From a virus: a stretch of DNA of 45,722 bases. The stretch spans positions 1 through 45,722 of the IMG/VR virus record IMGVR_UViG_3300003690_000023. One strand, given 5' to 3'. The notes below the pieces were generated by a model. The model saw nothing but the letters and a program-made list of their open reading frames with translations. It was not told the origin of the DNA and made no database searches. Shown here in pieces: positions 1,060-29,402 of the stretch (its first letter is position 1; every line of letters starts with the position of its first letter). The translations under genes were made by a program, and so were the position numbers.

Positions 1060-1445
1060 TGGCATCTGACGAAGACAGGTTAGACGGCGTTGACCCTTCT
1101 CTGGGGATCTCCTTGGGTAATCTGCCAGCTGAGACGGTGGATGCTATGTTCGCTGGGTTGGCTTGGGAGGCGGAGAAGAGCCACGGGCTGTCTGTGAGGG
1201 CTGTGGTGGCTGCTACCTTTGCTGCTGCGAGGGTGGAGAGTCAGATCATGGTTGATGAGGGTGTGGGGGTACGGGACCGCCTCCAGGCTGCTAAGCAGTT
1301 CAAGGCGGGGTTTCATGATGCCTGCCGGTTAGTGATGGACGAACCCCCTGTCCATCGTGTAGTGGGTATTGATAGCAATGGTCAGACGGTTGATATGTCT
1401 GTCCCTGCGGCCTTGGAAGCACTTTATGGAGATTCAACAGGTTGA
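1059..1445 (+). CDS. putative terminase small subunit
   Basis: A 128-aa protein, mostly helical and acidic, whose ATG overlaps the stop of the previous gene and whose 3' end overlaps the large terminase gene by 20 nt. Small terminases recognise phage DNA and present it to the packaging motor. This one has the usual size and position, directly before the large subunit. I see no clear helix-turn-helix motif. The Ala-rich stretch around residues 42-60 and the charged helix at 70-95 would suit the oligomerisation helices of the family. The call therefore rests mainly on synteny. An alternative is a small unrelated structural protein. Confidence 0.5.
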   Translation: MASDEDRLDGVDPSLGISLGNLPAETVDAMFAGLAWEAEKSHGLSVRAVVAATFAAARVESQIMVDEGVGVRDRLQAAKQFKAGFHDACRLVMDEPPVHRVVGIDSNGQTVDMSVPAALEALYGDSTG

Positions 1446-8497: not shown

Positions 8498-9943
8498 ATG
8501 GCACTCGCTAAGCCAATTGCCGCTGGATTTCAAAGTTCATTCGGCGCGTTTAATGAATTATTTCAATACACATACGCTGATGTAATCATCAAGCTCCTCG
8601 ATACGGTCGATGACCTCGAGAAGTGGATTGATTCCATCAATTTCGAGGATTGGGGCGGCGGTGATGCGAAGCATTACCTCTACAAGACTGCTGAGGGCAG
8701 TGGCTCCCGATTCATTGGCGGGAGAGGCGCTGGCGCACAGGCTCCGGTTCTTCCCGCGTACAACCCGCCCTCGTACCAAGAGGCTGCGATTCGGTTGTTC
8801 CCCCACATGGATATTGTGGAGATCACCGGTCCAAAGCTGGTTCGGGCACACGATAAGCCGAACATGTACCGCTCGATTATGAACGAGCTGGTCATGGACG
8901 CTAAGGACTCCCACCGCAATCGGATTGGTCCGAAGTACTGGTGGGGAACCTCTGACTCTGCAGCGGTGGATCCAGGGACGGTCGGAGCCAACTCTGGCGT
9001 GTTGGGCATTGTTCTCAATACCGCTCTCGTTGCGGCTCTGACAGACCCTTCTGCAGCGACAGATGGCGTGATTGCAGCTGGGGCAGTGATTCGGGCTCGT
9101 CAGCGTGAATGTGATGCGAACCTTGCCAGCCCTAAGGCTTACATGAACGCCTATGCGGGCGCTCGGTTCCTTCGGGTTGGAATGCAGGTCGCGATTGGGA
9201 CAGCAACTGAGCTTAACCTCGGCACAGCCGATACAGCTATCGTTGCTACCGTTGACCAGACCAACCAGACATTTACGCTTGACGTTCAGGTCATTCTTCC
9301 GGCAGCTGGCCAGGTCTTTATTGTCGAGGGTGATGCCAACGGCAATGAGTTCGGTGGTTCGGTCACAGGCCTTAATGATGCCATCAGCGATAACGGCAAC
9401 TACCACGGCATCAACCGTGGAACCCTTGCCGCTCCAGCCAATCAGTCGTGGCATTCTTTCGTCGTGCGAAATGGCAACGTGTTGCGCGACTTCAACCACT
9501 TCCGTATCACGTCATTGCTGATGCGGATGGGTGAATTGGGTCCGAAGGACATATCGGAAATGGACCCGGTTATCTTCTCTCACTCTTCATTGCTTCAGGT
9601 CTACCTGCAGGAGATCGACCCGGTCTACATGCAGACGGATCTCAAGGCTTTGAAGGGGCACACAACGATTGCCTATCAGTACGGAGCTAAGCAGATCCCT
9701 TGGGAGACCGCTCGAAGCCACCCGCTGAACAGCTACCACGTTCTCGATCGCTCTGCGATGAAGCGCGTGCGCCTTGGCGATTATGGCTGGGACACCTCGA
9801 CAGGAGCCATCTGGAAGCAGATTCCAGGGACGTTCGCCTTCCAGGCCTTTGCGTACAATGAATTCGAGCTTGTTTGCGAGAATCCACGTACACAGGGCAA
9901 GGAAGAGGACATCCGCGTTCCCACCGGGCTGATCTTCACCTAA
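8498..9943 (+). CDS. major capsid protein
   Basis: A 481-aa protein in the standard place after portal and scaffold, expected to have the HK97 fold and to form the capsid shell. Good initiation signal: AGGAGATAAGAGACC before the ATG. An internal segment around residues 222-278 (starting FLRVGMQVAI and ending with IVEGDA) looks like a small beta-barrel insertion of the kind found in several coat proteins. No protease gene or processed N-terminal delta domain is evident, so assembly probably relies on the separate scaffold. A GC hairpin follows the gene, which could leave more capsid than downstream message. The exact coat family is not recognised. Confidence 0.85.
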   Translation: MALAKPIAAGFQSSFGAFNELFQYTYADVIIKLLDTVDDLEKWIDSINFEDWGGGDAKHYLYKTAEGSGSRFIGGRGAGAQAPVLPAYNPPSYQEAAIRLFPHMDIVEITGPKLVRAHDKPNMYRSIMNELVMDAKDSHRNRIGPKYWWGTSDSAAVDPGTVGANSGVLGIVLNTALVAALTDPSAATDGVIAAGAVIRARQRECDANLASPKAYMNAYAGARFLRVGMQVAIGTATELNLGTADTAIVATVDQTNQTFTLDVQVILPAAGQVFIVEGDANGNEFGGSVTGLNDAISDNGNYHGINRGTLAAPANQSWHSFVVRNGNVLRDFNHFRITSLLMRMGELGPKDISEMDPVIFSHSSLLQVYLQEIDPVYMQTDLKALKGHTTIAYQYGAKQIPWETARSHPLNSYHVLDRSAMKRVRLGDYGWDTSTGAIWKQIPGTFAFQAFAYNEFELVCENPRTQGKEEDIRVPTGLIFT

Positions 9944-10527: not shown

Positions 10528-11214
10528 ATGGCTAATGATAATATGCGCTCAGGCCCACGGGGGTCGAGCAATCAAAGTGCTTACCTTAGACCGGTAACGA
10601 TCCGGTTGAACACCATGGCTAGCGCGACCGTTGATACGACGAACGTCAACCAAATGCTGCTGGACTGTGGGGTAACGCGAGACCATAGCGAGGATGATCT
10701 TGTTAACGGCACCATCGACTACGTAGTTGATGCCAGCGCAGCCACCGCTGGTTATGGGTTCCCAGGTATGCTGGACCCAACAACGTGGGGAGGCCAGTGG
10801 GTTATTGAGTCCCTCTGGGTCTATGCCCAGGTTGCCCTTGCTGGTAACAGTGGTGCGTTTACGGTTGGTGTGTACGCTCGCAATGTAGCGACACAGGCGG
10901 TAACGGCTGTTGATACGAACGCTTTTGTCACATCAAGGGTCCTTACATTGGCGCAACTGCCAGTTCTCTCTGTGGTTCACGAGATTCAACTGAATGGTGT
11001 TGGCGCTGGTCTTGAGGACAACGGCGGTACTGGCACGGGCTTGATCTCGTATACCCTTGGTTCTCAGGCGGCTCAGTACACCGATGGCGCTGCTGATGTT
11101 GTGGGCCAGGACCAGTTCTTGGTATTCAACCAGGACAATGCAGGGGGTTCTGCTGGTGATTACGTCGTTACTGCAGCACTTCGGCCTGTTGGCGGGAAGC
11201 AGTACTCGACCTAA
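10528..11214 (+). CDS. beta-rich virion protein, possibly head decoration
   Basis: A 228-aa protein rich in G, A, V, T and N with repeated short strands, low charge and no cysteine-rich motif. AGGAGAAGAGAAG precedes the ATG. It follows the other putative decoration gene after 38 nt, and its TAA overlaps the next ATG. The general composition resembles the gene at 9998 and the one at 29403, so this phage may carry a set of beta-rich surface proteins. I cannot name a family. Confidence 0.6.
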   Translation: MANDNMRSGPRGSSNQSAYLRPVTIRLNTMASATVDTTNVNQMLLDCGVTRDHSEDDLVNGTIDYVVDASAATAGYGFPGMLDPTTWGGQWVIESLWVYAQVALAGNSGAFTVGVYARNVATQAVTAVDTNAFVTSRVLTLAQLPVLSVVHEIQLNGVGAGLEDNGGTGTGLISYTLGSQAAQYTDGAADVVGQDQFLVFNQDNAGGSAGDYVVTAALRPVGGKQYST

Positions 11215-11807
11215 TGGAACCGATTGTAGCTACAACGCCTCAGAACCGTGACGACCTTAACCGGGAAGAGGACGACTTTTTTTCCAACATCGTGCGCGAC
11301 GGCACTGCTGGCGAGTATGATGATTGGGAGAAGAGGGCTAATGGATTCGGGGACATGTTGCCTGGGGAGCGATTCCACCTGCGTTTCATCAAGAAGAATT
11401 TTGATGGAGTGGCATTGAACAAGTGGATCGTCTTCTGCGACAAGCCCCCGTGTTCCGTTCATCCCGGTCGCAATCGGGTCATTACGGTAATGACGATTGA
11501 GGACCCCGGTTCTGTCGGTACCTTCTCTGCTCCTCGAGATGTTCACCTGGATGCCCTCCGGGTGGTTGTTCTCGACTGGCGGGAAGGCCGACAGGCCGCC
11601 CTCGATCGCTTGGAAGGTATGAGGGTCCAAGAAGAAGCGACCAGAGAAAAGGACGTCATCAGCGAAGCTGAGGGGCATGTTGATGAGATGTTCTGGGTCT
11701 GGAAGCGGACGATGGGCGAAAACCTTGGCCTACGCTTAGGCCCTGATGGTACTGGCCCCAACAGGGGTGGCAAGTACTTTGGTCAGGTGTTTGACCGGGT
11801 GGGATAA
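11214..11807 (+). CDS. unknown head-tail region protein
   Basis: A 197-aa, charged, mixed alpha/beta protein that I do not recognise. The N-terminal 45 residues are very acidic. A central beta part (residues 55-120) is followed by a helix rich in E, R and K (about 125-165). The gene lies between the head proteins and the adaptor and is coupled to both: its ATG overlaps the previous TAA and its TAA directly abuts the next ATG. A head-completion role is possible but not shown. Confidence 0.6.
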   Translation: MEPIVATTPQNRDDLNREEDDFFSNIVRDGTAGEYDDWEKRANGFGDMLPGERFHLRFIKKNFDGVALNKWIVFCDKPPCSVHPGRNRVITVMTIEDPGSVGTFSAPRDVHLDALRVVVLDWREGRQAALDRLEGMRVQEEATREKDVISEAEGHVDEMFWVWKRTMGENLGLRLGPDGTGPNRGGKYFGQVFDRVG

Positions 11808-12572: not shown

Positions 12573-14774
12573 ATGAAGGCCTCATCTCCGCCCTTGGTTG
12601 CGTTCGGTGCCCCCTTGCGGGGTATGGATGTCAGGGAGAGTAGAGACCCTCAATCCCCTGTCCTCCTTCACAACATTGACGTTTCAGAGAGTGGGGTCTG
12701 GAAGGACCGCCCTGGCTTGAGGAGATGGGCTTACAACCTTGGCGGGAAGGTGATGGGCCTCTCCGTATTCAGCATATACGAGCACAGCATTCTTGTTGCC
12801 ATATATGCGCATTCCTCTAGTAGTGAAATGAGGATGGTTATATTGGACCTGGATAGTCGCCTGACAAGCGTTCCGGTTCCTGTTCCCAAGCTGCTTTACC
12901 TCAGGAGGCTTAGCGATCCATCAATAGACCCAAGCTCTGGTGACAGCGGGTCGTCTTCTATTCATCCAGAGCCTTACACAGAAGATCATTACTACTCCTT
13001 CGCGCAGGCAGGCCGGAGCCTGTATTTCTGCAATGGATATGGCCAGTACTTCCGGCTTGAATGGTCGACGAACGACATATTTACTATTACTGGCGATGAT
13101 CAGGCGCTGACGGTAGGCGTGAAGAATCTCATCATGTCGTATCGGGAAGGCGGCTTTAGCCCATCAAGCCTTCATCACATCTTCAACCAAATGTTCGCTA
13201 GTGGATTCAGGGTCCCCAAGGAAGGGCCCCTTTCCGCTCCGATACCCGTGGATAACGATCTGAATGCGGAAGAGCTTATTGGACCTATGAGGACCTCTAT
13301 ATTGGTAGATCCTGGGGTGATTAGCGTTGCTCATCCTGGTGATGCCAAGAGCTTTCCGATTGAAGATAAGGGTGCCTTCATATGGATGAGCGACTCTGAA
13401 ATCGTGGGGATGAGCAGTATCCAAGCCAGGATCATCGTATTCACGAGAAACGGAATATCGGTTATTGAGGGCTATCCAGACGCAAGCGTCATGAAGATTT
13501 CATCCCACTCACTGGTGAGCAATCGGGCTCATGTGAGGTTTGGCGATTGGGTATTCTTTGTCTCTGATACCGGCTGCTTCGCTACCGATGGGATCACGGT
13601 GAACAAGGTCAGTGCGGAGATGGATCCCCTGTGGTTTTCTGAGAAGTACCCGGAGATTACCCACTCTACCCACGCCAAGATGCGGGATACCGCGTATCCG
13701 TTTCATGTGAACCTCTTCGCATTGCACCATGTCCACTGCGTTCTCGATAATGAAAGGCAGCAGATCATGGTCTTCCTTCCATCTCAGGGATTTGGAGATC
13801 GGCCATCGATGTGTTGGGTGTGGAACTTTTCTGATTTTATGGGCGGAGGGCAGGAGGCTGCTGGCAAGTGGGCCATCTGGTCTGGCAAAGAGGAGTTGGA
13901 ACAGGATGCTGGCAACAGCAAAGCCCTTACGAACACCTACTCGACAAAGACGACATCAGGGGACTGCACGGGCGCTGGGGGTGTGTGGGTTGCCAATGCA
14001 TGGAGCGGTACTGCTCACACTGGGATATGCAAGCCCCCTGTGGATGTATCCATAAATCCCACCACATACAGCGATGCGTGGCACATTACAGCCGCTACGT
14101 CTCATGAGTATGGAGGCAAGAGAAGGGCTATTTTAGGTACTATCGATGGTCGTTTGTCTGAAGTGATAGGAGATTACCCGGATGATGGCCCGTATTCGAC
14201 AGATACCCTTTCATTCAGGGCATTCAATGTGTTGATAGGCCTTGGAAGGACGGGTCGGGTGGATGCGGATAGCAGGACCATCTACACAGACGTGGCTATC
14301 CGCAAGAAGCAGATCTTCCGCAACGACGAGGATACCACCGACACTGTTCCGAATCTGGTTGTAAGCGCCCAATCGGAAGGCGAGGCCCTTCACATTGTCC
14401 CCACGAGCAATGAGTACTTCGATGTGACGATGGACAACATGGGTATTGGGACTAGCAGGGTATCGAATTCGATTATTGGGACTGTGGATGGAGAGGCGAT
14501 CAAGGTTGGTGCTCTGCCAACTGGAACGGGTAGCCCCATCATGTCTGGCGAGTACCACGAGGCATATGCGCGTCTAAACCTCCCAGATGACGAGGCCCGG
14601 TCTATTATCGTCGACATCATTTCAGAGGGAACGGATGGCGGCAGCGGTGCAAGTGTGAATACCACTACAGCTCATAAGATGAAGATCGTAGAAGTGCGTA
14701 TCCATGGAACGGTTAAGGGAGGGGCCCAGAGAGACGGAGGCAATCCCAGCGCCTCGGGGAAGGTAATGACCTGA
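12573..14774 (+). CDS. tail nozzle / packaged-DNA stabilisation protein (P22 gp10 / T7 gp12-like)
   Basis: A 733-aa protein with repeated beta-blade segments, as expected for the propeller that closes the bottom of a short tail. The N-terminus has the usual pattern of naming a protein set and a genome-independent coordinate line (HNIDVSESGVWKDRPG). A blade near residues 325-345 reads GDWVFFVSDTGCFATDG, a pattern often seen in gp10-like proteins. It follows the adaptor and precedes the spike gene, matching P22 and T7 order. The last 100 residues are Gly/Ser/Thr-rich. Its TGA overlaps the next ATG (TGATG). Confidence 0.68.
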   Translation: MKASSPPLVAFGAPLRGMDVRESRDPQSPVLLHNIDVSESGVWKDRPGLRRWAYNLGGKVMGLSVFSIYEHSILVAIYAHSSSSEMRMVILDLDSRLTSVPVPVPKLLYLRRLSDPSIDPSSGDSGSSSIHPEPYTEDHYYSFAQAGRSLYFCNGYGQYFRLEWSTNDIFTITGDDQALTVGVKNLIMSYREGGFSPSSLHHIFNQMFASGFRVPKEGPLSAPIPVDNDLNAEELIGPMRTSILVDPGVISVAHPGDAKSFPIEDKGAFIWMSDSEIVGMSSIQARIIVFTRNGISVIEGYPDASVMKISSHSLVSNRAHVRFGDWVFFVSDTGCFATDGITVNKVSAEMDPLWFSEKYPEITHSTHAKMRDTAYPFHVNLFALHHVHCVLDNERQQIMVFLPSQGFGDRPSMCWVWNFSDFMGGGQEAAGKWAIWSGKEELEQDAGNSKALTNTYSTKTTSGDCTGAGGVWVANAWSGTAHTGICKPPVDVSINPTTYSDAWHITAATSHEYGGKRRAILGTIDGRLSEVIGDYPDDGPYSTDTLSFRAFNVLIGLGRTGRVDADSRTIYTDVAIRKKQIFRNDEDTTDTVPNLVVSAQSEGEALHIVPTSNEYFDVTMDNMGIGTSRVSNSIIGTVDGEAIKVGALPTGTGSPIMSGEYHEAYARLNLPDDEARSIIVDIISEGTDGGSGASVNTTTAHKMKIVEVRIHGTVKGGAQRDGGNPSASGKVMT

Positions 14775-16249: not shown

Positions 16250-17905
16250 ATGCCACGGCATCCAAACAGAATTCCAAAGGGACCTAGTAATCAAGCTGCC
16301 GTGCCTGTATCTGGCACTGAAATGGCATCGCGTAAGCGCCAGGCTGGCATCGGCATGGACCCCAACATGCCCTTGGCCCCACAGATGCCTCGAGTCCCAG
16401 CTGCAGCTCCGCAAAGACCTGCCCCTCGCCCGGCTGCTCGCGCACGCCCGCAAGCCCGCCCTGCCCGTCCTGCGGCTCCCCAGAGGATGATGCCAGGCCG
16501 TGAGGGTGTGATGGTGACACGTCCACCCACAGTAGCTCCTGCTGCCACTGGCTATCAGATGCTGCAAGGGATGCCTCATCCGGATCTGGTGGCAATGAAC
16601 CAGACGATGGGGATCTCGAACCTATCGGATCTCGGAAGAGCCCAGCAGATGACAGGCGCTGCCCCCATTGCAAGACCAGCCGGTGGGTTGGGACAAAGGA
16701 TCACAGAAGGCCTTCCTACGCCAGTGGCCAGGCAGATTACTGCAGCAGGATTTGATCCTGCACTCCTCGATACTGCGAGGGAGCACACTACACCCCTCTA
16801 TGGAATTACATATTGGACTGAAGACGAAATGGAGGAGGAGTACCAGAAATATCTGGATGGCGGAGGAACTGACTCTTATGAGGATTGGAAGCAAGGGTTT
16901 AATAAGCATCCTGACGGCAATTACACGTCAAAGGGGATGTCTCCTGAGGCTGGAGCTATGGGGCACAACGATACCACTGCGTATAACGAGGAGATGATAG
17001 CGTCTGGAGCTTATGGTTTTAGCGGCGAAGGGTACGAAGAGGAAGAGGAAGAGGACTACGGCTTTGCTTCTGAAGGTCAAATGCCACATTGGTGGAAGCA
17101 AAAGTACGGGGATAAGGAGCCGGGTGATCCCGGCACGCCTGGTGCTGCTGTAGAAAGCGATGCTGACCGGTTCATGGAGGATATCCAGGAGGGAACCCAA
17201 CCCTTCCATCAGGAGAAAGCTGAAGCAGCGGCTGACGATCTCGGCTCACAGCAAAAAGATCTGGAAGAAGGCAAGCTGGAAATTGCGATAAAGAAAGGTG
17301 AGGCCGAACAAGAGCTAGAGGCTGAAGGGGCGACTGCTTACCAGAGCGCTATGGCCGACACAGATCGGCAATTCGCCATGATGGGGATGCTTGGATCATC
17401 CAACCACATGCTGGCCAACAACGCTTTGGCTGTTGAGGTTTTCAGGGGGTTGATGGATAAGCGCAGTGAGCTGAATGAGTTCTACGACAGTCAGACCTTC
17501 CGGTTGACCGAGGAGCATATCAAACAGATCGACAAGGATTTCCAGGAGATGTCGGATAACCTCCTCGAGGCCCTTAGGATTGAAACGGATGCATTTGCTA
17601 TCTCTGAGCAGTCTGAACTGGCATGGAACGATCTGCTCATCACGAGCCTTACGGCTTACGATGACATGATTGGAGGCGGGATGCTGTCCTTTATCCAGTC
17701 GTTTGAGAACCTCTCTGATGCGTCCAAGGCGATTCACGGGAAAGAGATATTCGCATTCGCTGCTGAGTTCTTTGGGTGCGTCGGTGGTAATGTTTCCAAT
17801 ATCCCGGCCTGTGCGGAGGAGTACAGCGATGCAGCAGCAGCCCTCTCGGAGAAGATGGCCACTGGAGAGGCTGGCGGTGGAGAGGCCGGAACGCCCCACA
17901 AATAA
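16250..17905 (+). CDS. internal virion protein candidate (disordered head, coiled-coil body)
   Basis: A 551-aa protein. Residues 1-100 are rich in Pro, Ala, Arg and Met and probably disordered. A middle part (170-290) is very acidic with a run of Glu near 265-275. From about 320 to 520 it is helical with heptads (EEGKLEIAIKKGEAEQELEA), ending in a Gly/Glu-rich tail. It opens the row of three large proteins that ends with the 3,026-aa product, the position held by internal (ejected) proteins in podoviruses. No lysozyme or protease motif is visible. AGAGGGG precedes the ATG. Confidence 0.6.
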   Translation: MPRHPNRIPKGPSNQAAVPVSGTEMASRKRQAGIGMDPNMPLAPQMPRVPAAAPQRPAPRPAARARPQARPARPAAPQRMMPGREGVMVTRPPTVAPAATGYQMLQGMPHPDLVAMNQTMGISNLSDLGRAQQMTGAAPIARPAGGLGQRITEGLPTPVARQITAAGFDPALLDTAREHTTPLYGITYWTEDEMEEEYQKYLDGGGTDSYEDWKQGFNKHPDGNYTSKGMSPEAGAMGHNDTTAYNEEMIASGAYGFSGEGYEEEEEEDYGFASEGQMPHWWKQKYGDKEPGDPGTPGAAVESDADRFMEDIQEGTQPFHQEKAEAAADDLGSQQKDLEEGKLEIAIKKGEAEQELEAEGATAYQSAMADTDRQFAMMGMLGSSNHMLANNALAVEVFRGLMDKRSELNEFYDSQTFRLTEEHIKQIDKDFQEMSDNLLEALRIETDAFAISEQSELAWNDLLITSLTAYDDMIGGGMLSFIQSFENLSDASKAIHGKEIFAFAAEFFGCVGGNVSNIPACAEEYSDAAAALSEKMATGEAGGGEAGTPHK

Positions 17906-17920: not shown

Positions 17921-20104
17921 ATGCCTAAATGGGACCTGCGTAGAGAAAGCGAGAGGGAATCACTTGCTGAGCAGAAGAGGCAGTTCGATGTCCAGATGGA
18001 CCTGGGGTTTAAGCAAGCCCTTGGGAAGATTGCTCTGCAGGAGGGCCTGAAGGCCACGTTTGGCCTTGGCAAGACCCTTGGTACTGATTGGGCGAAGTGG
18101 GAGCTATTCGGAGGTGAGGAGGCTGCGGCTAGGCAGCAGGAGGAGCTTCAGGAGAGGAAGAGGATTTCCAGGCAAGAGGAGAGGGTAGCTGGTGGCCCAG
18201 CTGCGGTTGAAGCCTATTACAAGGAGGAAAGGAAACCCTTGGAGGCCAGGCAAGAGGCCAGGCAAGATTGGGAGACTGGCAGAGCCGCTTCGATAGGGGT
18301 ATTGCCCGAGGAGCTTGCTGAAACAAAGCTGCGCGAAGAATTCGATTCGGCAAGGATGGGGGAAACCGAATATCCACATGCTGGGTTGGGACCGGTATAC
18401 ACCGATGAAGAGCGGGAGAAATTTGTAGGCGCTCAGGCTGGATACGAAAAGGCTCGCACCACCCTTGTCCGGTTAGAGGCTGCGTCAGATGCGCTCCAGC
18501 CAGGAGATCCAAGGAAATCCCGTGTAGACAAGGCCATTGATAACCTCAACGCCCAGATGAAGATAGAGCTTGGCATCACTGCCAATCTAGGTAAAGGCGG
18601 CAGGTTCCGCCAGGTGACAGGGGCACCGCCAACCAAGATCACCCCTCCTACAGCGAAAAGCATCCAGAGTGAATCGGACGACAGGGCTGTTGCCTACCAT
18701 CAGCTCAATGGCAAATTGCTCAGAGAGGTCTCTGGCATAAAAATTCTTCCAGATGGGTATGCCGACAAGACGGTTGTGATTCATCCAGATGACCTCTCGC
18801 CAGAGCAGAGGGATTCGTTAGACAATACGTACGACGCCATGCGTTTGTGGAAGGACGCCATTGGTAATGAGCACAAAAGGGCTGGATATGGTCCGAGAGA
18901 TATTGTCTTTGCTGAGTACGGCGGGCATGTCCCCCTGATAGCCTTGTCCAGGGGAGATAGTCTTAAGGGGCTGGGCTTGATTGGGGTCTCGAATCTGACC
19001 AGGGAGCCCGATCCCATTAAGCTGCGTGTTGCTGGCCTGGCTCCTCCGCCGAGGACGAGAGATCTTGCTGCCGAGAACCAGAAGACCCATGGGATGATTA
19101 ATAGCGCAATCAGCTCCTTCCTTGATCTCCAAGGGATTGGGAAGACGATAGGGCTGCAGGGCCACGAGCTAAAGGAATATGTTGAGGGGACCTTGAAGCC
19201 TGCGGTGAGGGCTTACGTGAAAGGTATTCAGCTCCCGAAGGGTGAGGTAATAACCAGGGACATTATCGAGAAGGCTTTAGCGCACCGTGGCGCTGGAGTC
19301 GGCGTCCCATTGATTGGTAGGGTGGGATCCGTTGATGTCGATGTGGAGCTTGTCCTTAAAGACATGGAAGCGATGAGTAAGGCGGTAATTGCGGAGGATA
19401 GGATGGAAGCGAAGAGTGCCAGGCCGCATGCCTTCCCGAATCTCACGGAACACCTCTACAATCCCGGCATCGGTCGATACTTTGCCACACCAGGTGGAGA
19501 TAAAAACGTCCACGAAGCGACAAGGACGCGGGAAGAAGTTCTGCGAGATGATTACGACAAGGCCCGTAATGCGAAATTGGCCACTGAATCTGTTGCGAAA
19601 GAAGTGTCTTGGGACAAGGTCGATCGATGGCAGGTGGCTTCTAGCGTTGGTGCGGTAGAGGCCATAAACATAATTGAAATTGGCGGCGTATCCCTTGTCA
19701 ATCCCAAGGTCACAGACGGGAACAACAAGACCTTCATCGAAGTGGCGACCGGTGGCATTTACAAAGATGCAGCTGATATCCTTCAGGACAATGCGAAGCA
19801 TAACGCTGGGAATATGATCCTTGCGTTCATATCCAGCGATGCAGGCTATGGGTGGCTCAAGGATAACGCCGATTATGATGAGAGGAAGTTTGCCCTGCTG
19901 AAGGAGACGATAGTGGGATTTGCCATTAAGAACTCTGAGATCGGAACCATTATGGACCCGGAAAAGCAGAAAATCTTGATGGGCATGAAGAAGGTTTTAG
20001 AGAGCCTTCCTCCTGGATCTCAGAGATTGAAAGAGTTTAAGGCGTCAATGGATCTCCTTAGGCTTACAATGCAGATTGGTACCCAACAGACTTTTGAGCG
20101 ATGA
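17921..20104 (+). CDS. large helical virion protein, possible ejection protein
   Basis: A 727-aa protein. Its first 160 residues are a highly charged helix (many E, R, Q; EELQERKRISRQEER near 75-90), followed by a mixed region and a long helical C-terminus. No cysteines, signal sequence or enzyme motif stand out. It starts after CGGAGAATAG, and its stop lies one base before the ATG of the giant gene, so the two are co-translated and probably work together. It resembles internal core proteins in composition and order, but sequence alone does not prove ejection. Confidence 0.6.
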   Translation: MPKWDLRRESERESLAEQKRQFDVQMDLGFKQALGKIALQEGLKATFGLGKTLGTDWAKWELFGGEEAAARQQEELQERKRISRQEERVAGGPAAVEAYYKEERKPLEARQEARQDWETGRAASIGVLPEELAETKLREEFDSARMGETEYPHAGLGPVYTDEEREKFVGAQAGYEKARTTLVRLEAASDALQPGDPRKSRVDKAIDNLNAQMKIELGITANLGKGGRFRQVTGAPPTKITPPTAKSIQSESDDRAVAYHQLNGKLLREVSGIKILPDGYADKTVVIHPDDLSPEQRDSLDNTYDAMRLWKDAIGNEHKRAGYGPRDIVFAEYGGHVPLIALSRGDSLKGLGLIGVSNLTREPDPIKLRVAGLAPPPRTRDLAAENQKTHGMINSAISSFLDLQGIGKTIGLQGHELKEYVEGTLKPAVRAYVKGIQLPKGEVITRDIIEKALAHRGAGVGVPLIGRVGSVDVDVELVLKDMEAMSKAVIAEDRMEAKSARPHAFPNLTEHLYNPGIGRYFATPGGDKNVHEATRTREEVLRDDYDKARNAKLATESVAKEVSWDKVDRWQVASSVGAVEAINIIEIGGVSLVNPKVTDGNNKTFIEVATGGIYKDAADILQDNAKHNAGNMILAFISSDAGYGWLKDNADYDERKFALLKETIVGFAIKNSEIGTIMDPEKQKILMGMKKVLESLPPGSQRLKEFKASMDLLRLTMQIGTQQTFER

Positions 20105-20105: not shown

Positions 20106-23100
20106 ATGGCAGATAGACCAGAATCAGAGCCTAGCGATCTGGGGGGATACAACCCCGCTATGGATTTCTCTCGACCCCTTTCTGAATTGCAGGAAATGTG
20201 GGAGGAGCAGGACAGGGTTTCTGAGCCAGACGAAGCCGTTGTCTTAGAGAAAGAGAGGGTGTTGGCTGAGGATAAGGCCTCGGCCGCAGAAGCGTCTGAC
20301 GCTGCCGTAGAGGGTGTTCTGGGCGAAGCCGATGTGGTGACCTCAGGCAAGGCGCTGGAAGGGGTTTCTGGGGGCATGGCTGGCATTATAGCTGGCATTA
20401 AGCATTCGATAGCCAATGTAGAGCAGATGGTTGGCGGACAGCAAGCAGGTCCAGCTGATCCGGATGAGCCAGCACCATCTGTTATGCCCTCGTCTGAGAC
20501 AACCCCAGAGGATGTGGCTGCTTACGATATGGAGTCTGCGACCAGAAGGCCGCGCAGGTTCCCATACGTTAAGCCATTGTTCATTCATCAAAGCAAGGTG
20601 GGTGAAGCGCCGACAAAAGACCACATGATGGGGAAGGGCATCATTCACGATGAGCCCTCCTGGCCAGATACCAACATGCCAGGCTCTTCCGTGCAGGGCG
20701 CGTGGTCGCCAGACCACAACGGGTACCTATCCCCTGGGGATTTTGAGCGGTACGACGACTACCGGACCCAAGAGGCGATGATGCCATCTGCTGTGGAGAT
20801 GGCGGACAATTACGTGGCTCAGGGCGAGATGGCTATGCAGCTAGCCCTTAAGGGTCCAAAGATTTTAGACCATGTCACGGGGCTGAAATTCTTCAATCCG
20901 AAGGCCCTTGGGTTTGATATCGACGAAGGGACATTGCGAGCTGCTATCGAGGAAAGGAAGGCGATCAGCGAATCTGAATGGGGGTCCAAGGGAGAAACAG
21001 GCCTTTACGGCATTCGCCTAGATGAGCAGGCGAAGGGTCGTGCCCGCCGAAAGGAAATCCTGACTCAGCTGGAAGCTAACCACACAAGGGGAGCTGATGC
21101 GGCAGAGGACATTCCCTTGCTTAAGGAATTCGCTACAAGCCTGGTTAGGGAGACAACTCTAATTCGTCCACGGTGGCAGTACCTTGAACAAACAAAGGGC
21201 GTTACCGATCCATCCGCATGGTTCGAGGAATTCCTTGGCAGCAGAGAGCCAGAAAAAGTGATGACGGTCAAGGAGACCAAGACGACCACAGCCCCAATGG
21301 GGACCCTTCTAGGTGGACCGTGGGGCGGCTCTGCGGCAGTGAGGGAGATTAGTGAGACAGAGAAGGAGCTAACTGATGCCAGTGAAGAGGATGCAACGAT
21401 AGCCCTGCTAGAGAGGGAAATGAAGCATCTCTGGCACAGGGGAGCGATTGGCAAAGACCAATACGACATGGCCAGACGCCAGGCCAAGGATCTGGTCCAG
21501 TACACCCTCGAGGTGAAGCCGCACGACATTATCCTTGGGATGCCAGATCTTCATGAGGATCCAGTTGGTGCCATCTTGTCGTTCGGGGCTTTTCTGGTGA
21601 CAATCCTCCCCTCCATGGTCTTTAGCGAGGTCATCGCTCTGTACGCAGATGTGTTCCATGGTGGCGCTACCGTTTATGGAGAGCCATCTGCCCCTCAGTT
21701 CAGGCAGGAGGCCAACCTCCAAGAGGCGAAGCATGTTGCCGGCATTCTTCATAACCCAGGCAAAACCCTTACAGAAGGAAATGTCGAAAAATTCATGACC
21801 GCTCTTTTCGAGGAGGGGAACGGCGAAGAGGTGGATTGGCAAATACCATCCGGAACCCTTGGCATGTTCGGTATTCTCGACAAGGTTGGGAGAATTACCG
21901 TCAGGAACGGTGGTCTTGGCGCTGCTGAGATGCGTCCATCCGACACCCTTGAAGCCCTCCTTCCTGAGAATTTGGCCAGGGCCAAGGAGAATATAGACGG
22001 GCACATGAAAGACCGTCTGCATGTGGGTATCCATGGCGAGGTTCTAGAATTTGATTCCATATGGAAAGACAGGCAATTCCTTCCAGTTGTCGCCAACATT
22101 CCTCGAGCTTGGAATCCAAGCATGGGGTATATCGATGTTGCTTACAGCGGATGGAAGAACGAGAAGGGGACTGCTTACGAGGAAGCGGAGAACATCTGGG
22201 AGGCGACATCAGATGGCAGGAACCCGGAGATGTGGCCAGAGGGAGCGCCTTCTGACGTTCGGCTAACGGGTATTGAGGTTGGTATCCCTGATATTTATGG
22301 TGTCGAGCGGGATAAGTGGTACGTCCCTCGACCCGGCCAACCAAAAGGGATTGAGAATATCTCTGAGCTGGCGGATTGGATTAGCTTTGACAGGACCATT
22401 AAGGTCGTTGAGGATGGTGGTCTTGGTTCAGAGATGCAGAAGGGAAACAGGCCGCAGATTGCCTCAGCCCTCCTTCATACCCTGTGGAAAACGAACAGTC
22501 CGGAATTTGTCTCTGTCCTAGCAGATCAGACCCTTAACCTCTCCAAGCAGGTATTCATTGGGATGCCTGCTGAGATCTTGGCTTCATCGACCATCCTTGG
22601 CGATTGGATCCCCTACAGCGACGAACTCTTCTCGTTTTTCAAGAGCGAATTCCCCCACCTCGAGGGGTACGATAGTTTCAACGAATACGCTCAGCACAAG
22701 TGGGAACGAGAGCCGCATATCCTTCTCTTTGATCTGTGGATCATGGGGGCAATTGGGTGGAAAACCCTTGGAAGGAGAGCCGTTAATGCCGTTGGCTCCA
22801 AGAGAAATTGGGCTGCTGCTGGTGAGTCGTTGCTGAACCTCCAGAAATTGGCGTCCAAGTACAATCCCAAAATGACCAAGGCTGAGAAGCAGCGGATCAT
22901 GGATGAGATGAAGGCGGAGACCAAGATCTACGAGGATTCCCTGAATCCACCTAAGGTCTCTGATTTGGCCAAGGAGGCTGTTAGCGACATCCATAAGCAT
23001 GGCCAGATCACATCCACAGAATTCAGAGGAGGCAACCAGGTTAAAACGGAGCTGGTCGACAAGCCGAAGACGGTTGGAGAGCAAGTGGTCCCGCCAGGAG

Positions 23101-26100
23101 GCGGTGGGAAGCTGAGGGTGGTATCTCAGTTGGAGGCTGATGTCATTCGACGTCGTATCGAATTGACTGGAGAGAAATTGGTTCCCCTGGAAGCAGGGCA
23201 GAAAATCCTGGATAGGACCATTCCTGATACAGCACCGAAGATCGTGCCATTGCCCATGAAGCAGGCAGCTATCGATGCTGGCAAGACAGAGATGCCATCT
23301 GTTGCTGCTGGCGAGGCACCCAAGCCTCCCACATCAAAAGACCTTCTTGACGCCACTCGAGGCATTCATGAGAGGGCTGGTCGTCTAGCTGACCAGATTG
23401 ATGCGATACGCCCCACAAAGATAAATTCATTCACAGATCCCATTGAGTACAAAAACAGCATATCGGATGCAGTGGATCGTCTTGGCGGATTGTTCCCATC
23501 TGGAGGACCCGTATACGACTCGATTCGATCTAAGCTGTCGGAGCTAATGGAATGGGTGGATAAGCCCGGTCGCGTGAAGGAATCCTTGCCAGAGCGATTC
23601 GCTGAGGATGGGGTTCCGAGAAGCGCCTTTCGCGTAGACCCTCTGGAGGCCCAAGCCTGGGACTACAAGCTGGCATCTCTTGCCAAGGAGGCAAGGAAGA
23701 GTGCGAAGGGGGCCTCTGACAGCGTCTGGGAGGCAGGTGGCCACCTTCAGGACAGGGCTGTAAGGGGAACCAAGCTCCACAGGATTGCGGACAAGCTACA
23801 GGAGAAGTTGGACAAGGCCCGTGATCAGATCGACGGGATCCCGGACCCGAAGACAAGGAAAGCTCTATTAAAAAAGAAGGATGCTCTTGCGGACAAGCTG
23901 GTTAAGGCGAGGGATGCTGCAAATGAGCAATGGCCTCGAGAGCCACTTAAGCCCATTGAGGTTAAGGACATTCCTCCAGACAAGCGGATCACGATCGACA
24001 ATTCAGTGGAGAGCCAGATGGCTGCTCACGAAGGACGCTTGGCGGAGATGCAGGCCAAGCTGGAAGAGGCTACGGCTTCAGGCGATAAGGCTTTAATCGA
24101 ATCCACCACCACTGAAATAGTCTCCCGGAAATTGTTGATGGCCGGAATTAGGGAGGCTTTGCATCCGAAGGATCCAGTGAAGATCACCGAAAGGTTCGAC
24201 CAATCGGATCGAATTAACCAGCTCCATAAGGAGCAAATACACGAGGCGGTCGTTTCCAATCTCGATACATTTTTTAATGAAGTGCGCCTTGCTCCGGCGG
24301 CGAAGACGAAGGGGAAGAAGACCAAGAGCCAGCTTCTCGGCACAGGAAAGGCGGAGCTTGCTAGGGTTCAGGGCTTGATTGCCAGCCTTCTTGGGTACTC
24401 GGGCCGCACCAAACGTGCCAACTACATTAAAGAAACAGCTGAGAGCCAGCGGGCCAGGGATCTTGCTGCTATGGGGGTGGACAATCCCCATGTGTATCGG
24501 GCGCTTCTGAACCCCGGTGGTAAAAAGCTCGGCGCCAAGAAGAAGAAGGAGATCGCTGAACTCGTTTTCCATGGAAGGATGTCCCTCCGAAGCAAAGCCA
24601 TTTCCGCCATCGAGGATTCGCTAAGCAAGCTGGCAGAGCTTAAGGGTGTCAGCGTATCGGAGTGGATTGCTGGCAATAGGCGGGAAAATGTGGCCTGGCG
24701 GATGGCTCAAAACGGCGTAAGGGAGCCGTCGGCCTATGCAATGCTTAAGCTCAGCGATGCGGACATCACGAAATACTCTGACATGGCTGCGGGAAAACCA
24801 CCAAAGGTGACGATCGTCAGGCGGGAGCAGGGGGATGCTGCAGAGGCGATGAACATGGATGTGCCAGTCCTCAAAAAGCCGTATGCTGACGTGGCCTACA
24901 ACAGGGACTCGAGGCTAATTAATGATTTCTTTGCGCGGCGATTCCTCACAACCCACACACTAGATGCCTGGAGGGGGCGTACGACATCTCAGCTGGTTCC
25001 ATCTGCCCAGAAGATTTACGCCGTTGGGGAGTTTATGGCCCACCCATTTGCGGTGGTCAACGTGCCTGCTCACTTCAGAGACACCATCATCTACTTGATG
25101 GCCAAGCATGGTGGATCCAAGAGGACAATCAATCGAGTTTTTGATGCTATTGGCCAGACCTTTCTGAATACGTCTGGCAAGATGGGGCCAGATTTCCACT
25201 ACACCCTTCGTAGATTCCGGTCTGCGGTGGACACAGCCAGCCAGAAGACGCAAGCCCTCCTTAGGGCCTACTCCAAAAGAACCAGCGTATGGGACGACAT
25301 GAAGGATATTCATGAGATCCTAGAAGCGGCTGAGATTGCAGGAGGGGAGGCTGCATACAGGGGTGGCCTGAAGTCTAACGGGTCATACATTGCCGATGCT
25401 GCATTCAATGACATGGCTCAACGAGCTGCCCATTCGATGGTGGAGAATTTCAAATTCGAGTGGACCAGGCCAGATGGCACTACTGAGTTGGTCTCGTTCG
25501 ATTTTGCAGAAACGAAATTCAAGATCCACACCGAAGCGGGATACGAGTGGTTGACTCGTGAGCAATTGCAATTCATGGCGAATGAACTTGGGATATTAAA
25601 GGAGGCTATCTACGGTGGTATAGAAAACGTGCAGGTGGTCCCCAAGGAAGGCTATGCCTGGGCAGATTTAACCCACAACCAGAAGACCCTCCTCCTCATT
25701 GCCAATGGCAATCTGAGGCCTATCAGGCTGGAGATATGGGATCTCCTCACCCAGTACAACATATCGAAAGATGCCCTGCGTCTGCAGATCGAGAACCCTC
25801 ACCAGAATGTGCTGTGGAAAGACGGCAAGATTGCATACTCATTTGAGAATTCAGCGAAGGGAGAGGTGCAAGCCCGTGCCTTGCAGGAGAAGGTTGGTGG
25901 AGAGATTCAAGCCGAATACCACGCCGCCTCTGTTGCTAAGCACAACGAATTGATTGCTGCTGCTGCCAGGGAAGAGGCGGCTGGCAGGAAAACAGGGGCG
26001 GATGATCTGAAAGCGGAGGCTGGTAATATCCAGCTCCAGGACGTGGCGAGCGTAAAGGGAGCGCATCTACGGAACGACTTCCATGGGGACGGCATCCTTA

Positions 26101-29100
26101 GGTCGACCTCATGGGTGAGTGATTTTTTCGATGGTCAGTTCGGGTTTGATTTTCTTGTCGATATGTACCGGAACGCCAAGCAAGGGAAGGTAACTGAATC
26201 TCAGTTCGCTGAAGCACTCGAGTCATACGACCTCTTGTACGCCAAGGTGATCCCCATCACGAAAGGATTGCTGGCTAGGAAACGACAGCTACAAGATCAA
26301 ATTGCCGCCAAAAAGAAGCAAGCGAAGGATAAGGGCTGGAGTGAGGAAAGGCTAGAAGAGGAGCTTTACGGAGCAACCCCGGAAGGGATGGCTATCGCCG
26401 CAAGGGTCAAGGCGAAAAAGGCCAAGAAGGGTAAGAAGGGTAAGAAGGAAGAGGTTGAAGAGATCCCCTTGCCCAAGAAGGAAGTGGCTGTTCCTCCAGG
26501 AGGCAGGCCACCCCTTGGGCCAGCCGCCATGCTCTATGACCTTACTCGAGCCAGCGGGATATTGGAGTTCTACAAGGGCAAGCCCCAATCACCCACGCAG
26601 GCCACAAAGGTAGCCATACCAGCTCACATCGAGAGGTTCCATAGGCTGCGTAAATGGGGGCACTTGACCCTTGAGGAGAAGTTGGCCCATGGCCTCTTCG
26701 ATTTCAGGGAAGCAGCAGCCCTTACGATGCAGGGCCTTTCTAAGAACCTGGCGGTATCCAGGATGCTCGTGTGGCTCCGGGAGAATGGTCTGGCCAGAAC
26801 CCAGGGCGAGGTGACCTCTGCTGGCCTTGAGGCTCCCTTGGGTAAGAATGTAAAGAAAACGGGACTGTCCTTTGAGATGGTTCCTGACGACCCTCTTTAC
26901 AGATGGGGTGATGAGATCCCCAAGGGGCTGATGCTGGAAAGCAGGACGGTCAAATACCTCAAGGAGATCCATGTCGTTGGGGAGGTCCTGTCTGGCAGCT
27001 CAGATGGTTCCTTCATGGGTGTGGTTGGCAAGACATACAAGGCAGCGTTGGGTGCCTGGAAGGTGGGGCAGGTAGCCCGGTTCTTGGGTGGGACCATGAT
27101 GCGGGCCATCATCGGTAACGGCCTCATCCTCGGCAAGATGGCTCAGATACCCTACAAGCATAAATATGTCAGGCGGTACATGGCAGACGCTATGCACTTC
27201 CGCAGAACGGGTGTGCTGAGGGGCATCTACAAAGAAACCCGCGACCAGGGTCACGGTGGTGCGACGATTTCCCACGAGACGAATGTTGTCCCGGATGAAT
27301 TCCTTCGGTGGCAGATGGATACGATGAACATTGACGGGAAGTTCTGGGATACGGTCGACAACATCGGTGATTTATCCAGGGATCGCGTCAAGAACCTCGT
27401 TGATATGTTCGATCAGGGATTTGCCAAAGGATCGTACGACAAGCTCCACGATTTCATTTCCCTCGATCAGATGAAGAGCCCTTTGCGTACCGGCAAGATG
27501 GACCGTGAGCTGAAGGCTGGGTTCCATAGGTATGGAGCAGAGGGCTTCAGGAAGATCTATGACTTCCAGCGCAAGTCGTTTGGAGGGATTGATGACCTCT
27601 ACAAGGGGTCATACGTCTATCAGCTGGTGTTAGACCACGGATGGACTGTGAAGGATGCTATCCGGATGGCTGACAGGGTCTTCATGGATTACATCGACGT
27701 AGCGCCTATCATTGGTTTCATTCGCCAGACCCCATGGGCTCTTGCTGAGCCCTTCGTCACCTTCCAGTTGAAGTGGCAATTCCTTTCCAATGAGTTTGTG
27801 GCTACGAATTCCCTCAAGGCCGCTGGGTGGTATCACCTGAGCCAGGCTCTGAACAAGGCCACCCTCGATACCCTCAACCTGCCTTACGAAACAGAGGAGC
27901 TTAACCGGGCTGCGAGGGGCAGGGAATACAAACAGATCATGCCGCTGGTCACATACGACAAAAACACAAGCAGATCGTACGCAACCACCCCGGCAGAGGC
28001 TGAGCGAGATTCGATGAAGATTGGGCATTTAGAGTTAGATCTATCGACGGTTATCGAGGGGTGGGCTCCAAGTCTTCCTGGCATGTTCCCCTCAAAAATT
28101 ATGGAGGCTGGTCAGCTATCCTGGATGGAGGGTACGAGCCTTAGCCCCATCAAGTGGAAGAAGGGTGAGTGGTTGCCAACGGTGGATAGCTGGAAGGATT
28201 TGACGAGGAATTTCTTTCGGACCTTCCTGATGTCAGGCGGGCTGGGAACCGCCATCCACGATAACCTGAACTTGCAGGAGAGGCATGACGCCAAAGACCC
28301 ATACGGTGGGGTTATTGACCAGATGACTATTACCAAGGGCCTCCTTACCCTTGCCTGGGAAGGCACTCACAATGCCATTGGGAATTTCCGGGACATTGCG
28401 AGCATCTGGTCGGCCATCACAGGGAAAGAGATTATGGGCAAGGAGACGAACAAAACGCTTGTCGCCTCCCGCATTCTTGGAATGTCATCATCCATTGCGG
28501 ATCCGCACAGGATAAGGAGGATGTACGGTGACCGCGTGTATCGCCTGATCCTGCCGTATGCCAGGCAGAAGGCATATGGGATGAGGCTTTTCATAGATCC
28601 GGGGCTGCTAAGTAACGCTGGAGACGACCCTGCATTCACCCTCATAAACAATCATTTGAGGATGGGCGGGGCTGAGATGGGCATCTACAGAATCCTTCAA
28701 GGCTCTATCCCATTGCAGAAAAAGTACCTGAATGATTCGATTAAGTCGCTATGGAATTACAGGGTGGCTTACAACTCCATGATCAAGGACGGTGAGTTGT
28801 ACGATTACCACCAATTGCTAATTGATTCCGGGATCCTTGACAAGGACTGGGACCTGACAGAGGGGGCTGGCCTCAACACTGGCATTGATTTTAGGTTGGT
28901 TCCCAAAAATGACAATACATACGACCTCATTTCCAAGTGGGGGAAGCATCGGAAGCGAACCGAATGGGACAGAGAGGCTGACAACAGGAACCCAGGGAAG
29001 CCCCACGAGTCAATTTTTCAGAATTACCTCATGACGGAGGGTTCTGAGGACCCAATCTTAATGGATAAGATCCATATCCCAGAAGAGGGATATGAAGAGA

Positions 29101-29186
29101 AGAGGCCAGAGGACAGAAGGGATGGGGCATACGACATCAGGATGCCTGGAAGGATCCCTGCTCATTTGAAACAACCAATTGATTGA
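20106..29186 (+). CDS. giant 3,026-aa virion protein, probably head-interior and ejected
   Basis: The largest gene here, one fifth of the window. The ATG at 20106 is chosen over the in-frame TTG at 20076, which lies inside the previous gene; the stop of that gene ends one base before the ATG. In order: an acidic disordered N-terminus (1-150); hydrophobic segments near 488-515, 815-840 and 872-892; charged helical regions near 910-1000 and 1200-1350; a Lys-rich linker near 2102-2125; then a conserved-looking C-terminal third with AARFLGG-like and NGLILGK hydrophobic patches (about 2320-2348) and the segment APIIGFIRQTPWALAEPF (about 2532-2550). That last arrangement resembles the C-terminal part of large polyvalent phage proteins. 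No T7-type polymerase, helicase, lytic or methyltransferase motif could be found. It may line the membrane channel for DNA entry; this is inference. Confidence 0.75.
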   Translation: MADRPESEPSDLGGYNPAMDFSRPLSELQEMWEEQDRVSEPDEAVVLEKERVLAEDKASAAEASDAAVEGVLGEADVVTSGKALEGVSGGMAGIIAGIKHSIANVEQMVGGQQAGPADPDEPAPSVMPSSETTPEDVAAYDMESATRRPRRFPYVKPLFIHQSKVGEAPTKDHMMGKGIIHDEPSWPDTNMPGSSVQGAWSPDHNGYLSPGDFERYDDYRTQEAMMPSAVEMADNYVAQGEMAMQLALKGPKILDHVTGLKFFNPKALGFDIDEGTLRAAIEERKAISESEWGSKGETGLYGIRLDEQAKGRARRKEILTQLEANHTRGADAAEDIPLLKEFATSLVRETTLIRPRWQYLEQTKGVTDPSAWFEEFLGSREPEKVMTVKETKTTTAPMGTLLGGPWGGSAAVREISETEKELTDASEEDATIALLEREMKHLWHRGAIGKDQYDMARRQAKDLVQYTLEVKPHDIILGMPDLHEDPVGAILSFGAFLVTILPSMVFSEVIALYADVFHGGATVYGEPSAPQFRQEANLQEAKHVAGILHNPGKTLTEGNVEKFMTALFEEGNGEEVDWQIPSGTLGMFGILDKVGRITVRNGGLGAAEMRPSDTLEALLPENLARAKENIDGHMKDRLHVGIHGEVLEFDSIWKDRQFLPVVANIPRAWNPSMGYIDVAYSGWKNEKGTAYEEAENIWEATSDGRNPEMWPEGAPSDVRLTGIEVGIPDIYGVERDKWYVPRPGQPKGIENISELADWISFDRTIKVVEDGGLGSEMQKGNRPQIASALLHTLWKTNSPEFVSVLADQTLNLSKQVFIGMPAEILASSTILGDWIPYSDELFSFFKSEFPHLEGYDSFNEYAQHKWEREPHILLFDLWIMGAIGWKTLGRRAVNAVGSKRNWAAAGESLLNLQKLASKYNPKMTKAEKQRIMDEMKAETKIYEDSLNPPKVSDLAKEAVSDIHKHGQITSTEFRGGNQVKTELVDKPKTVGEQVVPPGGGGKLRVVSQLEADVIRRRIELTGEKLVPLEAGQKILDRTIPDTAPKIVPLPMKQAAIDAGKTEMPSVAAGEAPKPPTSKDLLDATRGIHERAGRLADQIDAIRPTKINSFTDPIEYKNSISDAVDRLGGLFPSGGPVYDSIRSKLSELMEWVDKPGRVKESLPERFAEDGVPRSAFRVDPLEAQAWDYKLASLAKEARKSAKGASDSVWEAGGHLQDRAVRGTKLHRIADKLQEKLDKARDQIDGIPDPKTRKALLKKKDALADKLVKARDAANEQWPREPLKPIEVKDIPPDKRITIDNSVESQMAAHEGRLAEMQAKLEEATASGDKALIESTTTEIVSRKLLMAGIREALHPKDPVKITERFDQSDRINQLHKEQIHEAVVSNLDTFFNEVRLAPAAKTKGKKTKSQLLGTGKAELARVQGLIASLLGYSGRTKRANYIKETAESQRARDLAAMGVDNPHVYRALLNPGGKKLGAKKKKEIAELVFHGRMSLRSKAISAIEDSLSKLAELKGVSVSEWIAGNRRENVAWRMAQNGVREPSAYAMLKLSDADITKYSDMAAGKPPKVTIVRREQGDAAEAMNMDVPVLKKPYADVAYNRDSRLINDFFARRFLTTHTLDAWRGRTTSQLVPSAQKIYAVGEFMAHPFAVVNVPAHFRDTIIYLMAKHGGSKRTINRVFDAIGQTFLNTSGKMGPDFHYTLRRFRSAVDTASQKTQALLRAYSKRTSVWDDMKDIHEILEAAEIAGGEAAYRGGLKSNGSYIADAAFNDMAQRAAHSMVENFKFEWTRPDGTTELVSFDFAETKFKIHTEAGYEWLTREQLQFMANELGILKEAIYGGIENVQVVPKEGYAWADLTHNQKTLLLIANGNLRPIRLEIWDLLTQYNISKDALRLQIENPHQNVLWKDGKIAYSFENSAKGEVQARALQEKVGGEIQAEYHAASVAKHNELIAAAAREEAAGRKTGADDLKAEAGNIQLQDVASVKGAHLRNDFHGDGILRSTSWVSDFFDGQFGFDFLVDMYRNAKQGKVTESQFAEALESYDLLYAKVIPITKGLLARKRQLQDQIAAKKKQAKDKGWSEERLEEELYGATPEGMAIAARVKAKKAKKGKKGKKEEVEEIPLPKKEVAVPPGGRPPLGPAAMLYDLTRASGILEFYKGKPQSPTQATKVAIPAHIERFHRLRKWGHLTLEEKLAHGLFDFREAAALTMQGLSKNLAVSRMLVWLRENGLARTQGEVTSAGLEAPLGKNVKKTGLSFEMVPDDPLYRWGDEIPKGLMLESRTVKYLKEIHVVGEVLSGSSDGSFMGVVGKTYKAALGAWKVGQVARFLGGTMMRAIIGNGLILGKMAQIPYKHKYVRRYMADAMHFRRTGVLRGIYKETRDQGHGGATISHETNVVPDEFLRWQMDTMNIDGKFWDTVDNIGDLSRDRVKNLVDMFDQGFAKGSYDKLHDFISLDQMKSPLRTGKMDRELKAGFHRYGAEGFRKIYDFQRKSFGGIDDLYKGSYVYQLVLDHGWTVKDAIRMADRVFMDYIDVAPIIGFIRQTPWALAEPFVTFQLKWQFLSNEFVATNSLKAAGWYHLSQALNKATLDTLNLPYETEELNRAARGREYKQIMPLVTYDKNTSRSYATTPAEAERDSMKIGHLELDLSTVIEGWAPSLPGMFPSKIMEAGQLSWMEGTSLSPIKWKKGEWLPTVDSWKDLTRNFFRTFLMSGGLGTAIHDNLNLQERHDAKDPYGGVIDQMTITKGLLTLAWEGTHNAIGNFRDIASIWSAITGKEIMGKETNKTLVASRILGMSSSIADPHRIRRMYGDRVYRLILPYARQKAYGMRLFIDPGLLSNAGDDPAFTLINNHLRMGGAEMGIYRILQGSIPLQKKYLNDSIKSLWNYRVAYNSMIKDGELYDYHQLLIDSGILDKDWDLTEGAGLNTGIDFRLVPKNDNTYDLISKWGKHRKRTEWDREADNRNPGKPHESIFQNYLMTEGSEDPILMDKIHIPEEGYEEKRPEDRRDGAYDIRMPGRIPAHLKQPID

Positions 29187-29202
29187 ACAACAGCCAACAG
29201 GT

Positions 29203-29217: not shown

Positions 29218-29238
29218 CAACACAAGGAGAGGTAGGTC

Positions 29239-29400: not shown

Positions 29401-29402
29401 GG

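Follow-up and report, generated by a model that had tools for sequence, protein, structure and literature searches.

The window, the 45,722-nucleotide stretch of viral DNA analysed here over its whole length, carries a gene whose 3,026-residue product is probably the third and largest ejection protein (internal virion or pilot protein) of a podovirus, comparable to T7 gp16 or to an N4 gp50 without the polymerase. The reading follows from three properties of this giant protein: its gene lies in the slot of T7 gp16 and N4 gp50, it contains no cysteine, and one of its segments aligns with N4-type virion RNA polymerases (vRNAPs). Together they lend indirect support to a large virion protein that would be ejected and help to build a channel through the cell envelope; its location in the virion, its ejection, order of exit and refolding, and its role in the channel are all inferred from sequence comparison.

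Genome setting and the giant gene

The giant is encoded by a phage of an uncultivated podovirus lineage. Among annotated phages, no isolate has a recognisable portal or giant (including by tblastn with the window giant), and the phage was present in none of the bacterial genome contigs searched with portal and capsid for a host. The genes of the morphogenesis arm to which the text refers are the following.

1369..3525, plus strand: terminase large subunit (TerL; phrog_2, 7e-13)
5608..7755, plus strand: portal, the head-tail connector (phrog_332, 5e-13; phrog_156, 1.6e-9)
7759..8472, plus strand: scaffold-like protein, a weak assignment (phrog_8865, 1.6e-4)
8498..9943, plus strand: major capsid protein (phrog_14242, 1e-7)
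11214..11807, plus strand: 197-aa protein, placed in the tail tubular A slot solely on its size and position (T7 gp11 has 196 aa)
12573..14774, plus strand: 733-aa tail protein in the nozzle or tubular B slot (weak matches to phrog_8094, tail appendage, 2e-4, and phrog_511, 7e-3; synteny)
16250..17905, plus strand: 551-aa protein, proposed partner in the gp14/gp52 slot (2 Cys here, none in relatives)
17921..20104, plus strand: 727-aa cysteine-free protein, proposed partner in the gp15/gp51 slot (periplasmic tunnel), by position, size and cysteine absence only
20106..29186, plus strand: giant protein, an ORF of 3,026 aa with no cysteine and no family match, proposed ejection protein in the gp16/gp50 slot

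The 3,026-codon reading frame is real. It covers 19.9% of the 45,722-base record, contains no internal stop and begins with an ATG one base past the stop of the 727-aa gene (TGA-C-ATG), with an in-frame TTG upstream at 20076; its openness is not due to chance, because each of the remaining frames is interrupted by 60-169 stops. An earlier sequence-only reading had placed a 3,026-residue gene at 20106-29186 that fills a fifth of the genome, and both statements agree with the checked frame; the slot is conserved in relatives. Its 46-kb genome is plausible in view of a related contig of 40.66 kb with matching ends, although the record itself is linear and no end repeats were found in it. The minus-strand arm codes for a DnaB-type helicase, an SSB, a Cas4-like exonuclease and a methyltransferase, and no RNA polymerase was found among the window genes searched.

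Within the giant, four regions are distinguished.

21564..21620, plus strand: residues 487-505, the sole strongly hydrophobic 19-residue window (mean Kyte-Doolittle above 1.3)
24603..28025, plus strand: residues about 1500-2640, the part conserved in relatives
26409..26480, plus strand: residues 2102-2125, a Lys-rich stretch (11 Lys in 24)
27558..27827, plus strand: residues about 2485-2574, a C-terminal segment of about 90 residues (GIDDLYKGSYVYQLV...DYIDVAP...PFVTF), found by hhalign and hmmsearch

The Lys-rich linker and the long charged regions described earlier are both present, the latter at residues 1001-1500, where the stretches are 32-33% charged. The repeated hydrophobic segments are not confirmed, since the segment at 487-505 is the only strongly hydrophobic one.

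Two other genes are recorded here as separate observations. Just downstream of the giant, at 30124-31005, lies a conserved 293-aa protein (42-48% identity in relatives) with the motifs HGWGFHYC and YHWNAE; it has no Pfam match and is perhaps a glycosidase-like lysis enzyme. At 14774-15550, a 258-aa protein matched only in G006 and G008 shows by eye a beta-helix-like repeat pattern and is probably part of a tail spike or fibre.

Gene order and comparison with T7 and N4

In this lineage, the genes from the tail tubular A slot onward encode proteins of 197, 254, 733, (258), 225, 551, 727 and 3026 aa, an order to be set beside gp11, gp12, gp13, gp14, gp15 and gp16 of T7 and gp53, gp52, gp51 and gp50 of N4. 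In the window, in seven relatives and in L099, the giant is the last of three adjacent genes past the tail-tube genes, and these three (551, 727 and 3026 aa) fit a small-to-large ejection set. On this gene-order evidence, the slot of the giant is taken to be that of T7 gp16 and N4 gp50. N4 gp50 is described as the counterpart of T7 gp16: it is the last protein to be ejected, passes through a conduit that gp52 and gp51 form, and consists of strung-together sub-domains that fit the channel of the tail (PMC12633501). The 551-aa and 727-aa proteins, in gp14/gp52-like and gp15/gp51-like slots, respectively, are accordingly proposed as the partners of the giant.

Relatives and sequence divergence

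Relatives were collected from IMG/VR with TerL (17 loci) and portal (34 loci) and later with the 254-aa and 293-aa neighbours as queries; scanning viral contigs directly with the giant recovered none, and the aligned C-termini of the giants proved too divergent to serve as a query. A counterpart of the giant occupies the same slot in all seven surveyed relatives that reach the locus and in L099, and gene order is constant throughout, the counterpart standing directly after two mid-sized genes and these after the head and tail genes. Its ORF measures between 2,291 aa (truncated where the contig stops) and 2,817 aa in the seven records and 2,727 aa in L099.

Identity between the window and its relatives is 65-73% for TerL, 61-67% for the portal, 69-79% for the capsid, 52-62% for the 197-aa, 55-58% for the 254-aa and 30-37% for the 733-aa protein. 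The 551-aa protein retains 28-37% over about 130 aa, the 727-aa protein has no BLAST match among the relatives, and the giant retains 22-28% over 125-686 aa only, its first 1,500 residues aligning poorly. Podophage ejection proteins are reported to diverge much faster than portals, and the fast giant and slow portal of this lineage reproduce the contrast described for them (PMC8954989).

Several features of the relatives' giants were observed alongside. Five of them (L076 9610-9760; L062 from 12241, L064 from 9941, L066 from 12443 and L058 from 15788 downward) open with short aromatic and acidic tags that are duplicated or triplicated and differ by lineage: DLFSDVA x2, YSVFDD x2, DYFPEE x3, NSFSSWL x2 and Y[DA][DE]LL x3. 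The window giant has no such N-terminal repeats, and the idea that such tags label every ejected protein of a given phage was rejected, as they are confined to giants. A domain of roughly 100 residues (FPT.R.DG...GN.IEFDTPEEA..FA) moves between the ends of giants, being N-terminal in L099 (about 150-260) and L064 and C-terminal in L061 (about 2287-2394); it also stands alone in the Schitovirus Littlefix (gp26) and is C-terminal in head maturation proteases of Gordonia phages. In G001, the N-terminal part of the giant lies in a separate overlapping ORF (L061 1491-2564 and 2522-9817) where the near-identical L099 has a single 2,727-aa ORF, a split due to a frameshift or to faulty assembly. Contig G005 (40,658 bases; L068 and L096) is probably a complete circularly permuted genome, because its ends overlap inside the giant gene.

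Absence of cysteine

The giant contains no cysteine in 3,026 aa, a property on which the earlier reading had not remarked; the 1.108% cysteine of the other window genes predicts 33.5 residues, so that P(0) = 2.3e-15, and this DNA read in its other five frames gives 68-143 cysteine codons. None occurs in the 23,092 aa of the nine giants (window, seven relatives and L099). Among lineage ORFs of at least 400 aa, 24 of the 25 in gp14-, gp15- and gp16-like slots are cysteine-free versus 2 of 45 others (Fisher 2e-15), with ORF classes assigned by hand and genomes that are related rather than independent. The sole member of the trio with cysteine is the window 551-aa protein (2 Cys), and the two cysteine-free ORFs outside the trio, encoded between TerL and portal, have low-complexity products.

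The same pattern is found in a hand-chosen, non-random set of 11 phages with established or accepted ejection proteins, where these proteins contain 7 cysteines in 35,329 aa, compared with 159 cysteines in 21,372 aa of other proteins from those phages. The set comprises T7 gp15 and gp16; P22 gp7, gp20 and gp16; gp35-37 of phiKMV and of SP6; P-SSP7 gp15 and gp16; the gp50 and the gp51- and gp52-like proteins of four Schitoviridae; JC1 gp67-69; and epsilon15. The last is the exception, with 5 cysteines in 2,574 aa of ejection proteins; without these the count falls to 2 in 32,755 aa, epsilon15 being included in the 21,372-aa comparison set. A literature search with partial coverage of subscription papers, and hence a weak negative, returned no statement of a cysteine rule for ejection proteins. 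The absence of cysteine in the N4 vRNAP alone may have been remarked before.

Composition bears on the question of whether the giant might instead be a structural protein of the tail or head, tape-measure-like or part of a core, that stays in the particle. Its gene does lie within the morphogenesis arm and its long helical segments would suit such a role; against this, the gene set is of the podovirus type without a long tail, the length varies from about 2,300 to 3,026 aa across close relatives, and cysteine is absent as in ejected proteins and not as in the portal, capsid and tail proteins of the same genomes. A protein that remains in the particle is quite improbable.

Other observations on cysteine concern separate genes. 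Between TerL and portal (3525-5607), the window encodes three Pro/Gly/Ala-rich, cysteine-free proteins of 276, 188 and 227 aa without BLAST match in relatives, and G001 and G005 carry other cysteine-free proteins (480 and 465 aa) at this position; these are possibly further internal proteins. The highest cysteine content in the window, 12 residues (8%), belongs to a 150-aa protein at 31358-31810.

Searches for known domains and enzymes

Queried with the giant and its relatives, Pfam, PHROG and PDB returned no significant family at the sequence level, nor did NCBIfam, queried with the giant only, under conditions in which N4 gp50 yielded four vRNAP Pfam domains and JC1 gp69 yielded SLT, LPD3 and LPD38. 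Neither a polymerase, a transglycosylase nor a DarB-type domain was found in the giant, and Pfam gave no LPD, methylase or helicase match. A match of most of its length to a known non-virion enzyme, which would have contradicted the earlier reading, did not emerge from the Pfam, PHROG, NCBIfam and PDB searches. Of the follow-up proposed there, the PHROG search gave no match, while structure prediction gave an AlphaFold model of residues 1500-2670 with a pLDDT of 41, which was set aside, and a weak all-helical model of residues 2300-2640 (pLDDT 53.5, pTM 0.58). For the suggested polyvalent-type C-terminal third, no Pfam LPD model gives a match, but a C-terminal segment is common to other phage giants.

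These searches also weigh on a multi-function polyvalent effector of the Bcep22/JC1 DarB-like kind, which would be ejected too but would work mainly in the host cytoplasm, shielding phage DNA or disarming the cell, and not in building the channel. Its model, JC1 gp69, follows two virion genes as the giant does, takes a similar share of its genome (4,515 aa, 22%), likewise has no cysteine and was detected in virions by mass spectrometry (PMC9144972); some entries named large polyvalent protein also stand among the non-significant top Foldseek hits in BFVD. The methyltransferase- and helicase-like, SLT, LPD3 and LPD38 domains of JC1 gp69 are nevertheless all unmatched in the giant, whose N-terminal half is too variable for a conserved enzyme. 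Such an effector is unlikely, and an ejection protein that serves the channel is preferred.

A C-terminal segment probably shared with N4-type vRNAPs

The segment at residues about 2485-2574 aligns with the giant of the podovirus ctwe8250, with the partial giant L098 and, in N4-type vRNAPs, with the C2 domain. When the C-terminal profile of the giants was compared with the full N4-type gp50 alignment, a single place was matched, N4 3360-3446, with a score of 40.3-41.4 (E 1e-3); the match spans about 90 residues, and the gp50 alignment comprises four related sequences. Controls remained well below: none of 40 column shuffles exceeded 21.1 (mean 16.0, s.d. 2.1), reversing the alignment gave 23.7, and T7 gp16, portal and neighbours scored 12-19. 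In block-versus-block comparison, giant residues 2301-2640 against N4 C2 (2376-3500) scored 32.6, and the other 19 of 20 pairings at most 20.0. The ctwe8250 protein has the segment at 2e-6 by hhalign and 4e-11 by hmmsearch (8 sequences), and L098 at 2e-4 and 1e-5, respectively. These profile comparisons make a C-terminal link to N4-type vRNAPs likely. JC1 gp69 was rejected as a further sharer, its similar-looking stretch scoring no better than shuffles.

The N4 C2 domain is reported to resemble no known structure (PMC12633501). Foldseek with the weak 2300-2640 model gave only noise against PDB, where the N4 gp50 chains are present, and nothing significant against BFVD, whose non-significant top entries include several virion RNA polymerases and large polyvalent proteins, a hint only.

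A highly diverged N4-kind vRNAP would share the size, slot, cysteine absence and C-terminal segment of N4-type gp50. Yet none of the giant's blocks aligns with NTD, RNAP or C1 in the N4-type alignment, Pfam detects in it none of the vRNAP domains that it detects in N4, the HExxH of N4 C1 is absent, and no PDB match was obtained although N4 gp50 chains are among the PDB entries. The giant as a whole was rejected as a diverged vRNAP, the blocks outside the C2 pairing giving noise, and a polymerase of this kind is highly improbable. The resemblance to gp50 is better described as that of an ejection protein with a probably related C-terminal segment.

Proposed mechanism and implications

In the mechanism that we propose, several copies of the giant would be packed in the head close to the portal. 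Upon receptor contact, the 551-aa and 727-aa partners would exit first and assemble a conduit across the outer membrane and the periplasm. The giant would come next, its small, mostly helical domains, linked in a chain and free of disulfides, unfolding to traverse the narrow tail and then refolding. It may then form or cap the inner-membrane or cytoplasmic end of the conduit, its conserved C-terminal region acting as a docking or DNA-handling module. Taken on its own, the claim that the giant, once ejected, makes up the channel's inner-membrane end is close to evenly poised, tilting slightly against.

If a non-polymerase giant of 3,000 residues is indeed ejected, an ejected protein of this length need not be a polymerase, and the great size of ejection proteins is therefore not explained by vRNAP activity. 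The shared segment would then represent the first relatives of the N4 C2 domain outside Schitoviridae. Zero cysteine would offer a cheap test for ejected proteins among the many phage genes that lack annotation, and would suggest that passage through the tail and exposure to the oxidising periplasm impose a physical constraint. More tentatively, and with somewhat more doubt than belief, unlike podophage giants might share an ancestral C-terminal ejection or docking domain while their N-terminal cargo is swapped, with strict cysteine absence generally marking tail-threaded proteins; this would cover the N4-type vRNAPs (RNA polymerase as cargo), the present lineage (unknown modules) and ctwe8250.

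Comparison with known systems

With T7 gp16, SP6 gp37, phiKMV gp37, P-SSP7 gp16 and P22 gp16, the likeness lies in the order of tail tubular A/B, gp14-, gp15- and gp16-slot genes, and the T7-type gp15- and gp16-slot proteins likewise contain no cysteine. An N-terminal lytic transglycosylase is a feature of T7-type gp16 that is absent in the P22 type. The giant differs from T7-type gp16 in having neither an SLT (lytic transglycosylase) domain, for which Pfam gave no match in the giant or its seven relatives, nor a significant sequence match; no peptidoglycan hydrolase was identified in the 551-aa, 727-aa and giant trio. Compared with the giants of T7, P22, phiKMV, P-SSP7 and JC1, the window giant showed no significant match, hhalign scores being at noise level. 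Rapid divergence is common to T7-type ejection proteins and the giant, and is extreme within the gp16 class; the giant is 2.3 times larger than the largest ejection protein in a published table (1,337 aa, phiKMV; PMC8954989).

The podovirus ctwe8250 from Manatee Spring (MW202615) encodes a 2,166-aa protein (27793-34293; L104 4958-11458) whose C-terminal segment significantly matches that of the giant. Its gene closes the morphogenesis arm after those of 619- and 385-aa proteins, all three without cysteine; it carries an HELGH that the window giant lacks and is otherwise unalignable. It is annotated as a DNA repair protein and its neighbour as a chromosome segregation ATPase, and both look like misannotated ejection proteins.

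A further close parallel is Schitoviridae gp50 (N4, LUZ7, DSS3phi2 and Littlefix), above all its C2 domain; the protein has about 3,400-3,600 aa. The genomes differ, with about 40-46 kb in this lineage versus about 70-75 kb in Schitoviridae, as does the distance from the shared segment to the C-terminus, about 450 residues in the giant versus about 55 in N4. In both, the giant is encoded last, preceded in Schitoviridae by one small ejection protein of about 150 aa and another of middle size, about 410-670 aa, and gp50 and the gp51- and gp52-like proteins are, like the giant, entirely free of cysteine.
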